DNA from: an uncultured Lachnospiraceae bacterium
GTDB lineage: Bacteria; Bacillota; Clostridia; Lachnospirales; Anaerotignaceae
Assembly (NCBI GenBank): GCA_944383855.1
Contig: CALWRB010000017.1
Coordinates: 1-64,000 of the forward strand
Direction of reading: 5' to 3'
Length of the DNA: 64,000 nucleotides
Shown here: positions 3,395-16,019 of the stretch, piece after piece
Layout of the letters: each line of letters begins with the position of its first letter
How positions within the stretch are numbered: the first letter of the stretch is position 1
Program-made: the position numbers and the translations under genes
The notes under the pieces: generated by a model
Told to the model about the DNA's origin: nothing
Seen by the model: only the letters and a program-made list of their open reading frames with translations
Database searches by the model: none

Positions 3395-4264
3395 ATGAGT
3401 TTTCAGAAAAATTATCAGATGCTTTCCATCGGAGAGCTTTCTGCGCTGACGGGGGTACATATCAAATCGTTACGCTACTATGGCAGACTGGGTATTTTGC
3501 CGCCTGCCTATACCGATTCCGAAACGGGATACCGCTATTATTCGCCGGCGCAGGCGGATCTGGTGTTTGCGATACAGCTTTGTGTGGAAATGGGGATACC
3601 GCTTAAGCGTTTTTCCGACTTCTGGCTGGAGCAGACACAGCAAGTGGATTATAATAAGCTGTTGGCGGAAGGCACCAGATTGATGCAGGAAAAAATCGAT
3701 GCCATGCAGGAAAGGCTGCGCTTTGCGTACGAAACGGAAGCGGAGATTGCGCGCTGTGAGCTGTGCCGCAGCCAAAAAGAGGCGATTTCCTTTGCCCTGC
3801 CGTCAAAAAGCTGCCTTTTGGTGCCGTATGAAGGCAGGCAGACAGAGGCAGGGTATGTCGTCTTGCGAAATCGCCTGATGATGCAGTGCCGCAAAAAGCA
3901 AATTCCGGTCGGTTATGAAGCAGGGCTTTTGACGGTATTTCAAGCCGAAGGCAGCAGACAATTCCTGTTTTTAGATCTGGCTGTTGGGGCGGAAAAACAG
4001 GCGGAGCGGTTGGGAATCCCCTTACTTTGCCTGCCGCAGACGGAATATCTTTGTAAAATGACAAAACAGGAAGGCATCGGAGAGGCAAAAGACCACTTTG
4101 CCGCGTTTTTTGCGCAGCATAAGGACGCTTTGGTGCTGCAAACGGAACTGTTTACCAGTATTTACCCGCCGGCGGCACCACTGTATGAACTGCGCTGTGC
4201 TGTACTTCCGAAAAATCTAAAAAATACGAAATTTTATCTTGACAGAAAAGAAAATATATTTTAA
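3395..4264 (+). CDS. MerR family transcriptional regulator
   Basis: The 289-residue protein starts with a winged-helix MerR head: SIGELSALTGVHIKSLRYY (about residues 11-29) followed by GYRYYSPAQ, then a helical dimerisation segment around residues 85-120. The remaining 160 residues look like an effector-binding domain of the BmrR/GyrI type, sensing small molecules rather than metals, as no cysteine ligand cluster is seen. The ATG at 3395 is preceded by AAGGAGG. It is divergent from the MATE pump, so it likely activates the pump in response to a pump substrate. Confidence 0.85.
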   Translation: MSFQKNYQMLSIGELSALTGVHIKSLRYYGRLGILPPAYTDSETGYRYYSPAQADLVFAIQLCVEMGIPLKRFSDFWLEQTQQVDYNKLLAEGTRLMQEKIDAMQERLRFAYETEAEIARCELCRSQKEAISFALPSKSCLLVPYEGRQTEAGYVVLRNRLMMQCRKKQIPVGYEAGLLTVFQAEGSRQFLFLDLAVGAEKQAERLGIPLLCLPQTEYLCKMTKQEGIGEAKDHFAAFFAQHKDALVLQTELFTSIYPPAAPLYELRCAVLPKNLKNTKFYLDRKENIF

Positions 4265-4287
4265 TATATGAATAGATATTCATATAT
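4264..4287. promoter_or_regulatory. ArsR-type operator 1
   Basis: A perfect inverted repeat of ATATATGAAT and ATTCATATAT with a 4-bp centre lies 17 bp before the arsR-type start. It matches the ATATGAA...TTCATAT pattern bound by SmtB/CzrA-class repressors. It starts inside the stop codon of the preceding merR gene, so the regulator and ATPase are probably transcribed from here. Confidence 0.75.
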
Positions 4288-4304
4288 GGAAAGGCGGAAA
4301 CGGC

Positions 4305-4622
4305 ATGGAAGAAAAGCAAGCCGCCTTTTTACGGGATTTGGCAGAATTTTTCAAAGTATTCGGTGATGTGACACGCATTCGCATTTTAAGTTTGCTGCAG
4401 AAGGAGAGAAGCGTCGGTGAGCTTGCGGAGGCATTAGAGATGCAGCCTTCGGCGGTTTCTCACCAGCTGCGTGTGCTGCGCCAGAATGATTTGGTCAAAT
4501 ACCGCAAGGAGGGCAAAACCGTGTTCTACTCTTTGGACGATGAGCATGTGCGTACTGTATTGGAACAGGGAATGACGCATATTCGTCATAAAAAAGGATA
4601 CACGGAAAGTGCAGAGGCATAA
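4305..4622 (+). CDS. ArsR/SmtB family metal-sensing repressor
   Basis: This 105-residue winged-helix repressor has the recognition region PSAVSHQLRVLRQNDLVKYR (residues 48-67). Its C-terminal helix carries D79-x-H81, H92 and H95, with exactly the spacing of the alpha-5 zinc site of CzrA/SmtB (D-x-H, 10 residues, H-x-x-H). That argues for Zn(II) or Co(II) sensing rather than the cysteine-based Cd/Pb site. It lies directly upstream of a P1B-type ATPase, and palindromes before both genes fit autoregulation and repression of the pump in the absence of metal. Confidence 0.92.
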   Translation: MEEKQAAFLRDLAEFFKVFGDVTRIRILSLLQKERSVGELAEALEMQPSAVSHQLRVLRQNDLVKYRKEGKTVFYSLDDEHVRTVLEQGMTHIRHKKGYTESAEA

Positions 4623-4678
4623 AGACAGGAACCGCATACAGCTTCCGGAGGCAGTGTGCGGCGGTGTTTTTTGGCAAA

Positions 4679-4700
4679 TATATGAATATATAAACATATA
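4679..4700. promoter_or_regulatory. ArsR-type operator 2
   Basis: TATATGAATA and TAAACATATA form an imperfect inverted repeat around a 2-bp centre, 36 bp before the ATPase start. The TATATGAATA half is shared with operator 1 upstream of the repressor gene, so the same repressor probably binds both and the ATPase has its own control point. Confidence 0.6.
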
Positions 4701-4735
4701 ATCATTTATGAAAAGCTCAAAAAGGAGAGAAAGGT

Positions 4736-6907
4736 ATGGGAAAAATCAGTGTGATCTGTCAGGGGCTGACGTGTGCGGACTGTAGTGCAAAGATTGAGCG
4801 GGAAGTAGCAAAGCTACCGATGGTGGAAAGTGCGATTTGGCATATGATGCAATCCAGACTGGATATGGTAACGGATGCTTCGGAAGAAGAATTGCTGCCT
4901 GCTGTAAAAGAGGTCGTGGCAAAATACGAGCCGGATGTGACGGTGCTTTCCATGCAGGAAGCTGCAGCGCATTCACACCCGCATGTGGCGCATACGCATG
5001 GCGACGGCTGCGAAGGACACGGCTGCAGCTGCCATGCTGCGCATAACTCTGCCTTGCAGGCGCAGCAGCAGGAGGAAACGGAGGAAAAAGCGGCACAAAA
5101 GAAGCTATTTTTACGCTTTGTGGTGGGCATTGCCTTGTTTTTGCTTTCCTTGACACAAACGGATACTTTAAAAGCCGTTTTGCTTGTGGGGGCATACCTG
5201 ATTTTCGGGTATGATGTACTGTTGCGTGCGGTACGCAACTGTTTCAAAGGGCAGGTGTTTGATGAGAACTTTTTGATGTCTTTATCTACCATCGGTGCGT
5301 TTTTCATTGACCAGTGGACAGAGGCGGTATTCGTTATGCTGTTTTATCAGCTGGGCGAGGCGTTCCAAGATCACGCTGTGGCGCGTTCACGCAAATCCAT
5401 TCGTGCACTGATGGATATTCGCCCCGACACGGCGCATTTGGTCACAGAGGACGGTGTTCGCAGCGTTTCGCCGGAAGAAGTGGCGGTTGGCGATGTGATC
5501 ATGGTCAAAGCGGGCGAAAAGATCCCGTTAGACGGTACTGTTTTGGAAGGCAATGCGCTGTTGGATACGGCGGCGCTGACGGGAGAATCTTTACCAGTGG
5601 CGGTGCAGGAAGGCAGTGAGGTGCTCAGCGGCAGCCTGAATCAGGATGGTGTGCTGCGGATTCGCGTGGAGAAAACATTTGCGGCTTCTGCGGTGATGCA
5701 GATTTTAGAGATGGTGGAACACGCTGCCGAGAAAAAATCCGAGACAGAGCGTTTTATCACTCGTTTTGCCAGAGTATACACGCCTGCGGTAGTGGTAGCG
5801 GCGGTACTGCTTGCGTTTGTGCCGACTTTGCTGGGCATGGGTCCTTTCACACAGTGGCTGAACCGTGCGCTGATATTCTTAGTCGTTTCCTGCCCATGTG
5901 CGCTGGTTTTAAGCGTTCCGTTGAGTTATTTTGCGGGTATCGGAGCGGCATCTGCCAAGGGTATTTTGATCAAAGGCGGCAATGGCATCGACCGCTTGGC
6001 ACAGGTAGATACCGTTGTGCTGGATAAGACGGGAACACTGACGGAAGGTACATTTCGCGTGATAAAAGTAAGCGCTCAGGACCAAACAGAGATGCTGACC
6101 CTTGCGGCAGCGGGAGAAGCGGTATCCACACACCCCATTGCCAAGGCGATTGTCCGCTATTATCAGCAAAATATCGCGCAAACATTACCGAAAGCAGAGG
6201 ACGTGCATGAAATCGGCGGTTACGGTATCGTTTACGGCACGGGAGAAGATCGTGTGCTGTTGGGCAACGCAAGACTGATGGAAAAAGAGGGGATCGCTTA
6301 CGATATGGTGCAAGAAAACGGTACGGTGGTACATGTAGCAAAGGGAAGCCGATACTTGGGGTATCTTTTGGTGGCAGATCAAATCCGTGCAGAAAGCGCG
6401 CAGGCGCTGCAGGAGCTGAGAAAACGCGGTGTGAAACAAATCGTAATGTTGACGGGCGACCGGGAAGAAACCGCAGCCGAAGTGGCAAATACACTGGGGT
6501 TGGACGCTTACCACGCACAGCTGCTGCCGCAGGGAAAAGTGGCTGCCATGGAAAAGATACTGGAAAAAGGCGATCAAACCGTTGCGTTTGTGGGTGACGG
6601 TATCAATGATGCGCCGGTACTGGCAACGGCAGATGTCGGCGTTGCGATGGGTGCGATCGGTACCGATGCTGCGATCGAGGCGGCAGATGTGGTGCTGATG
6701 CAGGACGATTTGCGGAAGTTGGCGGAAGGCATTCGTATTTCGGTAAAAACAAAACGTATTGTGCATCAAAATATTGTGTTTGCATTGGGTGTGAAGGCGG
6801 CGGTGCTGCTTTTGGGTGCGGTCGGTCTGGCAAATCTTTGGCTGGCGGTATTTGCCGATGTGGGGGTTGCTGTGCTGGCGGTGTTAAACGCAATGCGGAA
6901 AAAATGA
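4736..6907 (+). CDS. cadA: Heavy-metal-translocating P-type ATPase (Zn/Cd/Pb type)
   Basis: This 723-residue P1B-ATPase exports soft divalent metals across the cytoplasmic membrane. It has one N-terminal HMA domain with GLTCADC (residues 10-16), then a histidine/cysteine-rich linker (about 79-103) that could buffer zinc. The core shows the CPC ion motif (386-388), DKTGTLT with the phosphorylated D430, an HP motif, and GDGINDAP (620-627). The CPC plus histidine-rich linker and the upstream zinc-type ArsR repressor point to zinc or cadmium rather than copper. AAAGGAGAG precedes the ATG. A strong terminator follows. Confidence 0.93.
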   Translation: MGKISVICQGLTCADCSAKIEREVAKLPMVESAIWHMMQSRLDMVTDASEEELLPAVKEVVAKYEPDVTVLSMQEAAAHSHPHVAHTHGDGCEGHGCSCHAAHNSALQAQQQEETEEKAAQKKLFLRFVVGIALFLLSLTQTDTLKAVLLVGAYLIFGYDVLLRAVRNCFKGQVFDENFLMSLSTIGAFFIDQWTEAVFVMLFYQLGEAFQDHAVARSRKSIRALMDIRPDTAHLVTEDGVRSVSPEEVAVGDVIMVKAGEKIPLDGTVLEGNALLDTAALTGESLPVAVQEGSEVLSGSLNQDGVLRIRVEKTFAASAVMQILEMVEHAAEKKSETERFITRFARVYTPAVVVAAVLLAFVPTLLGMGPFTQWLNRALIFLVVSCPCALVLSVPLSYFAGIGAASAKGILIKGGNGIDRLAQVDTVVLDKTGTLTEGTFRVIKVSAQDQTEMLTLAAAGEAVSTHPIAKAIVRYYQQNIAQTLPKAEDVHEIGGYGIVYGTGEDRVLLGNARLMEKEGIAYDMVQENGTVVHVAKGSRYLGYLLVADQIRAESAQALQELRKRGVKQIVMLTGDREETAAEVANTLGLDAYHAQLLPQGKVAAMEKILEKGDQTVAFVGDGINDAPVLATADVGVAMGAIGTDAAIEAADVVLMQDDLRKLAEGIRISVKTKRIVHQNIVFALGVKAAVLLLGAVGLANLWLAVFADVGVAVLAVLNAMRKK

Positions 6908-10678: not shown

Positions 10679-10782
10679 GTGCATATTTTGTATGTACTAC
10701 AAGGTAAAAAGGTGCGGAAATGAAATGCGGAAAGATGTAATTTTTTCCTGTTTTTAATGAAAACTTTGTGTGGCTATGGTAC

Positions 10783-10882
10783 AATGACAGCAACCAGTTT
10801 GTTTGCTGTCCGCATTCTGCCCTTTGGGCAGCCTGTACTGCTGTATCCCTTTGGTCACAGCAGGATCGTACACTTCGCATTG
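10783..10882. repeat. 100-bp structured direct repeat, copy A
   Basis: This copy matches copy B at 94 of 100 positions by direct comparison. It folds into three consecutive hairpins: GACAGCAA/TTGCTGTC (10786-10793, 10803-10810), CTGCCC-TTT-GGGCAG (10817-10831) and CTGCTGT/ACAGCAG (10838-10844, 10857-10863). An extended -10 element (CTATGGTACAAT, 10774-10785) overlaps its left edge. No protein-coding frame in it looks real. It may be a REP/MITE-like element or a structured RNA. Confidence 0.85.
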
Positions 10883-10963
10883 CCCTGCGAGCAATGCTCA
10901 TGCCGCGCCTTGGAAAAGAAAATATCGGCTTTGCCGCTGCTTTCTTTTCCGGCGGAAGCGGCA

Positions 10964-11063
10964 AATGACAGCAACCAGTTTGTTTGCTGTCCGCATTCTG
11001 CCCAAAGGGCAGCCTGCACTGCTGTATCCCTACGGTCACAGCAGGATCGTACACTTCGCATTG
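10964..11063. repeat. 100-bp structured direct repeat, copy B
   Basis: This is the second copy of the structured repeat, 81 bp downstream of copy A. The middle hairpin loop is AAA instead of TTT, and the third loop has ACG where copy A has TTG. The three stems are unchanged, so the six differences fall outside paired bases or in loops. A third partial match, GCAAATGACAGCAA, follows at about 11075. The surrounding stretch 10883-11180 contains nothing else I can identify. Confidence 0.85.
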
Positions 11064-11186
11064 TCCGAGGGGCGGCAAATGACAGCAAACGAATTTTGCG
11101 GAAACACTCTGCTTTCCGGCGGCAGAAGGCGTCTGCAAAAAATAACAAATGTCTGCGGCAAAAAAAGCTGCTGTACGGAAGGAAAA

Positions 11187-11232: not shown

Positions 11233-11418
11233 ATGTTGAAAATGATACAGATTTTTGCGTTGACGATGCTTTTGGTCTTTTTTACATTATGGGATATTAC
11301 TGCATTTTTTCAAACAGCGGAAAAAGATGTGATTACATATCTTTTGCTGGTATTAAACGCGTTTGCGGTTTTTTTCTGGATCAAATATTGTGCAAAAATT
11401 TTGAAAAATACAAAATAA
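11233..11418 (+). CDS. Small membrane protein, two predicted helices
   Basis: The 61-residue product has two hydrophobic segments (about residues 5-25 and 35-53) separated by a short polar turn and ends in KYCAKILKNTK, a positive-inside tail. I do not recognise a family. AGGCGG lies 5 bp before the ATG. The frame fits snugly between a strong upstream ribosome site and a terminator, which favours a real gene, but length alone is weak evidence. Confidence 0.5.
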   Translation: MLKMIQIFALTMLLVFFTLWDITAFFQTAEKDVITYLLLVLNAFAVFFWIKYCAKILKNTK

Positions 11419-14479: not shown

Positions 14480-14689
14480 TAGAATGTGTGGCTTTAAATA
14501 AGAAAAATTGTCTAACTTTAGAACATTTTAGTTTAATGCGTATAGATATGTGCATTTAATACAAATTGAGTAGTGAAAAAACCGTCTATAGATAAGAAAT
14601 ATGATTAAAATGCATAAAATAAAACTAAAAAATATTTCAGTAAAAATCACGAAAAATAAAAACGATCTTGAAGAAAAACCTCGAAAAAA

Positions 14690-14736
14690 AAGAAAAAACA
14701 GCGAATTTTCGGTTTAAAACGAGAAATTCGCTGTTT
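14690..14736 (-). terminator. Terminator after purA
   Basis: AAACAGCGAATTT (14696-14708) pairs with AAATTCGCTGTTT (14724-14736). On the minus strand a T run follows. Confidence 0.85.
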
Positions 14737-14744
14737 TCGGTTCT

Positions 14745-16019
14745 TTAATACATGACGATATATTCATCTCTTGCGGCGCCGACAGAAACATATTTGATGC
14801 GGCAGCCAACTGCTTTTTCAATGTAACGAATGTAATCCAGTGCTTCCTTGGGCAGATCCTCTACTTTGCGGCAGGCGGAAATGTCACACTGCCAGCCGGG
14901 CAGTGTTTCGATCACGGGAGTTGCACGGTTTAATTTCGCGGAATACGGGAACAGTTCTGTCTCTGCTCCGTCCAGGGCATAGCGCACGCAGACAGGGATC
15001 TCCTTCATATAAGAAAGTACGTCCAGCTTGGTCAGCGCGATCTCATCGCAGCCCTGCACCAGGATACCGTAACGGGAAGCGGGCACGTCAAAGGGACCGA
15101 CCCTTCTGGGGCGTCCGGTTGCGGCACCGTATTCTCCGCCGGCAGCACGCAGCTGTTCCGCTTCTTCGCCGAACCATTCCGCGGTGAAAGGACCTTCTCC
15201 CACACAGGTGGAGTAAGCCTTCATGATGCCGACGACGCGGTCCAGTTTCAAATTGGGTACGCCTGCGCCGATGGGGGCATAGGCAGCAATGGTGGAAGAA
15301 GAAGAAGTGAAGGGATAGATACCGAAGTCGATATCACGCAAAGCACCCAACTGTGCTTCAAACATCACGCGTTTGCCGTTTTTGACTGCTTCGTTCAGAT
15401 ACTGTGTGGTGTCGCAGATGTAATCCTTGAATTCTTCTGTGTATTTGTCTAGCCACTGCATCATGTCTTCTTCTTTGACGGGTTCTTTGCCGTAAACGCC
15501 GGAAATCGTCAGATTTTTATATTGCAGGATATGGGAGAACGTATGATGGCAGTATTCTTTTTCCAGCAGATCGCCCATACGAATGCATTTTTTCATATAT
15601 TTATCGCCGTAAACGGGGGAAATGCCTCTGCGGGTGGAACCGTAAGCTTCCCCTGCCAAACGCTCTTCTTCCAATACGTCTAACAGACGGTGATAAGGGA
15701 AGCAAACGATGGCTTTGTCACTGATTTTCAGGTTTTCGGGGGAGATTTTTACGCCGGCGGCACGCAGTCTGCCGATCTCTCCGCTTAAATGCTCCAGATC
15801 GATCACCATGCCGTTGCCCATGACATTGACCACATCTTCGCGCAAAATGCCGGAAGGCAGAAGGTTTAGGATAAATTTGCCCAGATCGTTGATCACGGTG
15901 TGTCCCGCGTTGTTGCCGCCCTGGTAACGGCAAACAATGTCATAGTCGGCGGAAAGCAGGTCTACCATTCTGCCCTTTCCTTCGTCGCCCCAGTTGATGC
16001 CTACGATAGATGTCAGCAT
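14745..16019 (-). CDS. purA: Adenylosuccinate synthetase
   Basis: This 424-residue enzyme joins IMP and aspartate, using GTP, to give adenylosuccinate in AMP synthesis. It has NWGDEGKGR with the catalytic Asp (D12) and GGNNAGHT with the catalytic His (H40). The IMP-binding stretch is divergent: FEAQLGALRDIDFGIYPF replaces the usual EGAQG...LDID-GTYPF, and SSSSTIAAYAP replaces TSSN-TAGG. ATGRPRRVG near residue 300 is intact. The presence of D12 argues against the phage PurZ relatives. It is a single gene with a perfect promoter and an attenuator-like leader. Confidence 0.93.
   Translation of the reverse strand: MLTSIVGINWGDEGKGRMVDLLSADYDIVCRYQGGNNAGHTVINDLGKFILNLLPSGILREDVVNVMGNGMVIDLEHLSGEIGRLRAAGVKISPENLKISDKAIVCFPYHRLLDVLEEERLAGEAYGSTRRGISPVYGDKYMKKCIRMGDLLEKEYCHHTFSHILQYKNLTISGVYGKEPVKEEDMMQWLDKYTEEFKDYICDTTQYLNEAVKNGKRVMFEAQLGALRDIDFGIYPFTSSSSTIAAYAPIGAGVPNLKLDRVVGIMKAYSTCVGEGPFTAEWFGEEAEQLRAAGGEYGAATGRPRRVGPFDVPASRYGILVQGCDEIALTKLDVLSYMKEIPVCVRYALDGAETELFPYSAKLNRATPVIETLPGWQCDISACRKVEDLPKEALDYIRYIEKAVGCRIKYVSVGAARDEYIVMY

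Follow-up and report, generated by a model that had tools for sequence, protein, structure and literature searches.

A putative miniature mobile element of some Clostridia at the -10 hexamer of sigma-A-type promoters

A pair of hairpin-rich repeats in the genome of an uncultured Lachnospiraceae bacterium appears to belong to a dispersed family that we read as a new promoter-seeking miniature mobile element, carried by a group of Clostridia. Taking its parts and the proposed steps jointly, we consider it probable that the element is a miniature, noncoding mobile element that inserts at the -10 of sigma-A-type promoters. Sequence comparison establishes its structure and dispersal, the position of its target, its fixed borders, the existence of filled and empty sites, and its growth in tandem. 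In the literature, as represented by titles and opening parts of abstracts, no description of the element was found. If the reading is true, an element targeting the -10 hexamer would amount to a natural, heritable promoter editor in a large group of Clostridia, and this would account for the ability of selfish DNA to take up residence before housekeeping genes (polA, addB, recD2, guaA, and murA) without killing the cell.

The repeat array in the window

The window, by which we mean the whole 64,000-nt stretch of DNA that was analyzed, carries a direct repeat of 103 nt at 10783-10885 and 10964-11066, 93% identical and with 181 nt between starts. A sequence-only reading had described a pair of 100-bp repeats with 6 differences that break no stem, a middle hairpin with loops of TTT and AAA in the two copies, a further, partial copy, and an extended -10 at the first copy. 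The differences are as described, 6 inside the noted 100 nt and 7 in the full 103 nt (10823-10825 TTT/AAA, 10836, 10851, 10852, and 10883); none disrupts a stem, and the T->C at 10836 replaces a wobble pair with a Watson-Crick one. The loop of the middle hairpin (B) is indeed TTT in unit 1 and AAA in unit 2, and a partial third start, GCGGCAAATGACAGCAA, lies at 11072-11088. The extended -10, TATGGTACAAT at 10775-10785, is the context of the first hexamer and turned out not to be incidental, since it is the insertion point. As for the pair itself, the repeat is real but the unit is longer: the 103-nt repeats are the left (A-B-C) part of a unit of about 180 nt, to which the further hairpins D and E (10877-10962) also belong. 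The order of the unit is a -10 hexamer, hairpins A, B, and C, a sequence complementary to the left border (the anti-(-10)), and then hairpins D (small) and E (long). Unit 1 begins with the hexamer TACAAT (10780) and extends over A, B, C, ATCGTAC, D, and E to 10962, and unit 2 has kept A, B, C, and the anti-(-10), lost most of D and E, and is followed by the third start. The hexamers at the inner border and at the right border are both degenerate (CAAAT). In short, the window copy is an array of some 1.6 units, old and with parts deleted. Both copies are more stable than shuffled sequences (z of -2.7 and -3.4), and the whole folded array is far more so (z of -8.25). Its assignment to the element is by homology with three other loci of the same genome and is to that extent putative. 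The features are as follows, all on the + strand.

10775-10785, +: left border, extended -10 TATGG and hexamer TACAAT; pairing partner of the anti-(-10) (5' strand, P1); from sequence, aligned with the left borders of other copies
10786-10810, +: hairpin A of unit 1; helix 2, with double-sided changes in 4 of 9 pairs in alignment A6
10811-10837, +: hairpin B of unit 1 (loop TTT); helix 3, with double-sided changes in 8 of 11 pairs
10838-10863, +: hairpin C of unit 1; helix 4
10865-10871, +: anti-(-10) ATCGTAC, complementary with one mismatch to GTACAAT of the left border; helix 1 and the left-versus-right test in other copies
10877-10897, +: hairpin D of unit 1; helix 5
10902-10962, +: hairpin E of unit 1, with a conserved AAAT/GCTT mismatch motif and an outer foot that pairs with the right end; helices 6-8, counts from model R3, and an R3 match at 10901-10967
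10962-10966, +: degenerate hexamer CAAAT at the border of units 1 and 2; from sequence
10967-11052, +: unit 2, hairpins A, B (loop AAA), and C and the anti-(-10); from repeat analysis, model R1, and sequence
11053-11075, +: D/E remnant of unit 2 (internal deletion); from sequence
11076-11090, +: third start CAAATGACAGCAAAC, the right border of the array; from repeat family D2 and sequence
11233-11418, +: 61-aa open reading frame downstream in the same orientation, a putative gene served by the promoter; from the list of open reading frames

Two other inverted repeats were seen in the window. One, at 14686-14746, has 30-nt arms, 77% complementary and 1 nt apart, and lies terminator-like directly after an adenylosuccinate synthetase-like gene; the other, AT-rich with 32-nt arms 390 nt apart (4256-4709), closely precedes a heavy-metal P-type ATPase-like gene (4736-6907).

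A family conserved in structure

The sequence-only reading had asked for a count of copies across the genome and a covariance search, and had named a lack of other copies as the finding that would count against it; that finding fails, because the same genome (G000) holds three further loci (C54:31099+, C4:24725-, and C12:22087-), with more in other genomes. Two of these loci were found by BLASTN and the third by a pattern search with the left end; BLASTN with the window repeat alone gave only 3 places in the genome and missed the kinship in relatives. All of the same-genome loci share the order hexamer-A-B-C-anti(-10)-D-E-hexamer-A'-(B'), the repeated part being near-identical within a locus and the stems differing, with compensation, between loci. 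The covariance model R1, built from four same-genome loci, recovered three full copies in G010, a genome of another genus, with E values of 2.8e-27 to 1.3e-16, and since these copies were outside the model, they constitute an independent test of kinship. In the resulting 7-locus alignment, which was fitted to the R1 structure and so leans the counts towards that structure, 88.5% of cells pair, double-sided changes occur in 28 of 64 pairs, and every helix has compensatory changes; the covariation of 0.327 compares with 0.132 for shuffled alignments (reached in 0 of 500) and at most 0.112 for slid structures. For hairpin E, 20 copies give 90.4% paired and a covariation of 0.362, against 0.152 when shuffled.

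The genomes compared are drafts. Searches with model R2 gave matches in 6 of 58 genomes of the family at E<=0.01 (three of the six partial or weak), in 29 of 392 sampled genomes of the order at E<=0.001 (some of the weaker ones sharing mainly hairpin E), and in 2 of 398 genomes of the phylum at E<=1e-6, both from the same order. The hairpin E model R3, whose training sequences included TATAAT at the right edge and which is therefore mildly biased towards such matches, counted 0-10 copies per genome in 12 genomes, and searches with R1, R2, and R3 found no copies in G001, a genome of the window's own genus. Our table of copies holds 42 of the 43 R3 hits, a partial hit in G010 (C28) being left out; loci L135-L141, which consist mainly of hairpin E in other arrangements, are excluded from the counts. 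Weak R1 or R2 matches in G050, G057, G022, and G065 and one in G010 (L029, L027, L030, L125, and L040) look like chance and were dropped, as was a BLASTN match in G007 that looks like coding sequence. In 20 loci, Rfam gave no match to the element at gathering score and only a flanking T-box; the SpF25, Atu_C9, MicX, and L20 matches in the window are weak, all below their gathering scores, and were set aside. Phage and plasmid records held no match to a G353 copy, and two patterns searched in viral contigs gave no matches.

The three copies in genome G353 are identical over their first 100 nt, while their flanks are only 29-36% alike. Identical 100-nt copies at unrelated sites point to recent mobility. 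The contrary notion is that promoters are duplicated locally and that template switching corrects the hairpins, no real mobility being involved. Tandem units, near-identical within a locus, would be expected from such a process, and the TTT/AAA loop flip of the window, a single case, fits template switching within a palindrome; however, near-identical copies at unrelated sites of one genome already contradict this account, as does the same architecture across families, and we regard it as very improbable.

Related arrangements were noted elsewhere in the order. In loci L136-L141 and L150 hairpin E (AAATGYC..GYCGCTT) is common and the neighboring hairpins differ, some of these repeats having TATAAT on the far side of E in reverse orientation; they are apparently sister families. 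Separately, copies in G393:C11, G354:C46, G370:C26, G326:C32, and G395:C44 seem to be one orthologous insertion in which stems A, B, and E have changed with compensation, which would be useful for separating selection from palindrome correction.

The promoter setting

From their sequence context, the copies appear to sit at sigma-A-type promoters. In 36 of 38 copies, the first left hexamer has a TG before it at the extended -10 position. The terminal units have a -10-like hexamer at their right border in 30 of 36 cases (99 of 4,200 random windows), preceded by TG in 19 of the 30; it is missing or degenerate in the other 6, the window among them. Upstream sequence resembling a -35 hexamer (4 or more of 6 positions) accompanies the left hexamer in 15 of 37 cases and the right hexamer in 0 of 35, the random frequency being 10.6%. 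Downstream, a gene start in the same orientation follows within 160 nt in 33 of 42 copies, the corresponding counts being 9 of 42 when the opposite direction is searched and 302 of 840 for random positions. The genes so placed, named by reading their sequences rather than from a database, include polA, addB, recD2, guaA, murA, and HIT genes and rlmI-like, zapA-like, S1-like, and fabG-like genes. One copy, in G066 (L123), is in reverse orientation relative to its neighbor gene. A search of the whole G000 genome with the pattern GGTAYAATGACMGCAAA gave 17 matches with up to 2 mismatches, against 2 for a reversed-pattern control; several are lone promoters devoid of the element, and they may be either a common promoter sequence or scars of lost elements.

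Filled and empty sites

Orthologous regions with and without the element locate the insertion, the empty ones having an intact -10 at the corresponding position. Upstream of rlmI, G382 is filled and the element is present in 0 of 30 orthologous loci of that genus; the empty site of G411 reads CTATGGTATAATCTGC and the filled site of G382 TATGGTATAAT-element-CACAGTATAATAATGCG. Among 20 addB regions, those of G354, G395, G413, and G326 (in tandem) are filled and G393 has a deleted copy; here the empty site of G416 is GGCGGTGTGATATAATCACTGG and the filled site of G354 is GGCGGTGTGATATAAT-element-CGCAGTATAATCACTGG. At fabG, G354 is filled and 5 of 6 genomes are empty, with the hexamer TATACT in four of the five and TATAAT in one. 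At recD2 and guaA, G010 is filled and G067 is empty (CTATGCTATACT and TATGGTAAAAT, respectively), the right border at guaA having lost native bases. At murA, G000 is filled, and G001, of the window's genus, has TCGTGATATAAT 205 nt upstream of the start codon. The S1-like site is less tidy: G354 and G416 out of 8 are filled, G395 retains a hairpin-A remnant, several of the "empty" genomes carry a possible scar sequence, and the G416 copy, whose left and right hexamers are TATACT and TATACC, respectively, fits neither hexamer rule. For the window itself there is no empty-site partner, because the named D-aminoacylase orthologs lack the window's synteny at the 17 loci checked (L043-L059) out of 80, and the nearest named relatives of that neighboring gene are metagenome-assembled genomes filed as Clostridium, Ventrousia (Clostridia), and Negativicutes. 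A different hairpin-rich insert, lacking hairpin E and with TGATATAAT on both sides, was seen in the addB upstream region of G402 (L244).

At rlmI, addB, fabG, and recD2, and less cleanly at the S1-like gene and guaA, the element interrupts the promoter immediately 5' of its native -10 hexamer. The left border retains the native -35 and TG and bears TATAAT, and the right border retains the native hexamer; fabG, the S1-like gene (G354), and recD2 combine TATAAT on the left with the native TATACT on the right. Most simply read, the element brings its own TATAAT and would insert directly 5' of the native hexamer. One might instead suppose that a small circle recombines site-specifically, in integron-cassette or Xer-like fashion, with TATAAT as a 6-bp core, and both the tandem arrays and the identical 8-mers at the two borders of 20 of 32 copies would follow from it. 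We think this improbable, since the left and right hexamers differ consistently at TATACT sites and no conserved arms lie outside the hexamer.

Complementarity to the left border: DNA or RNA?

In the 32 copies for which both borders were found, the eight bases of the anti-(-10) match the left border perfectly in 25 and the right border in 18. The borders differ in 12 copies, and in 11 of these the anti-(-10) fits the left one better; the exception, in G370, is due to a mis-picked upstream TTTATAAT, its true left and right borders being identical. The anti-(-10) therefore matches the left, not the right, border in all 11 informative copies. Moreover, where GA replaces GG before TATAAT, the anti sequence has TC for CC at addB, in G393:C11, and in G322:C4, though not at recD2; at addB the two bases preceding the left hexamer are host sequence.

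These results bear on the possibility that the repeats are a structured regulatory RNA leader (5' UTR), duplicated between promoters, such that B, C, D, and E form in transcripts from the left promoter and regulate the gene. Most copies are oriented as the downstream gene, the covariation is strong, the left hexamer has a native -35 upstream of it, and apparently orthologous copies change in sequence and retain structure, all of which would suit a leader. Yet the downstream genes (polA, addB, recD2, guaA, rlmI, murA, and HIT) are unrelated, most orthologs lack the element, the G066 copy is reversed, and the anti-(-10) tracks the left border rather than the transcribed right one. The P1 pairing also uses bases at and upstream of the -10, and since bases before the left hexamer are absent from a transcript that starts downstream of it, we infer that the pairing would act in DNA rather than in the transcript. 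Covariation fits RNA and single-stranded DNA equally. The diversity of genes, the presence of the element in some close relatives and not in others, and the pairing with the left border favor DNA over RNA, and a regulatory leader strikes us as distinctly unlikely. An effect of the element on the transcript is nonetheless predicted as a likely side effect.

A proposed mechanism and the search for an enzyme

According to the mobile-element reading, an element of about 120-180 bp would insert in fixed orientation directly 5' of the -10 hexamer, at promoters whose -10 is extended by a TG. Its left end is TATAAT (or TACAAT) and its right end ...CRTGG, with variants such as CGCAG and CACAG. After insertion, the native -35 and TG would face the -10 of the element, and in many copies the right end would supply a new TG to the displaced native -10, so that the gene may stay transcribed. 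Transposition may proceed via a folded single strand in which the internal anti-(-10), ATTATAYC, would serve as a guide pairing with the left border or target in the manner of IS200/IS605, and the 5' foot of hairpin E would pair with the right end, again as IS200/IS605 guides do. The target might be accessible since RNA polymerase melts the -10 box, and cutting would fall to an enzyme supplied in trans. The full version of this idea, that promoters are found by base pairing, with ATTATAYC reading the unwound -10 in the open complex, the ends rebuilding an extended -10, the host gene surviving, and a non-Y1 enzyme moving the element, is one that we put forward tentatively, with somewhat more doubt than belief. 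The filled/empty pairs and the guide-like sequence make it directly testable.

The search for an enzyme was confined to Y1_Tnp (PF01797, E<=0.001), and it found no autonomous partner. Of 12 genomes with R2 hits, 9 lack the domain: 5 of the 8 that carry full copies, including G353, and all 4 that have sister-type hits only. Y1 proteins are encoded in G000, G010, and G326, and no credible R2 match lies near their genes. A Y1 transposase gene in G000 (C36:14537-14889) is in two pieces, one of them with an internal stop codon. The RAYT/REP system as mover was accordingly rejected in most carriers, Y1 being absent and the surroundings of Y1 genes free of R2 matches. The REP-like dispersed element suggested by the sequence-only reading thus survives as to dispersal and conservation of structure; by the tests made, it is not a RAYT-type REP, and it matches no Rfam family at gathering score.

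Likeness to known systems

As in IS200/IS605 ends, PATE, and REP/REPIN sequences, the element has subterminal hairpins with conserved mismatches and internal sequences complementary to its borders. PATE is a non-autonomous IS200/IS605 derivative sharing such features. The filled and empty sites, in which the left TG(R) is native, add further likenesses to IS200/IS605: fixed orientation, insertion beside a short target, and no long terminal inverted repeats. The IS200/IS605 guide mechanism involves short internal sequences complementary to the border (PMC6006769), and possible counterparts are seen twice in the element, in the complementarity of the anti-(-10) to the left border and in the foot of hairpin E, which covaries with the right end. 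The element departs from IS200/IS605 in that its target is a promoter -10 hexamer, its ends are a cloverleaf and a long hairpin, and most carriers lack Y1; the resemblance of the guides would best be taken as likeness in working, not membership. It could still be argued that the element is a strict REP/REPIN-like or other IS200/IS605-derived element moved by a trans-encoded Y1 (HUH) transposase. The subterminal hairpins, fixed orientation, insertion adjoining a short fixed sequence, and complementary "guides" speak for such a descent, as do the Y1 proteins of the three genomes named above; but G353, with its near-identical and recent copies, is among the full-copy genomes devoid of Y1, and no Y1 gene has an R2 match beside it, which leaves this descent unlikely in our estimation. 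Compared with RAYT REPs, the feet of the element are CCACG/CGTGG-like with compensatory variants, there is no GTAG tag, and no Y1 gene is flanked by it. CGTC-tagged REPs are palindromic repeats apparently lacking a dedicated transposase (PMC3733652). They differ from the element in being palindromes of 20-40 bp. We know of no promoter target for them.

Unlike a classical MITE, which has terminal inverted repeats and the target-site duplication of a DDE transposase, the element has no end-to-end inverted repeats, and its flanking hexamers differ at TATACT sites. The Correia elements, MITEs of Neisseria, are described as short, noncoding, upstream of genes, and promoter-bearing (PMC10969869). 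By that description the element is like them in all four respects; it differs in structure, in that no terminal inverted repeats were seen, and in inserting at an existing -10. The target preference of Correia elements is a different one. Finally, compared by description, the pneumococcal BOX, RUP, and SPRITE repeats are likewise modular hairpin repeats, and BOX grows by repeated modules; the element is set apart from all three by its target, the -10 box.
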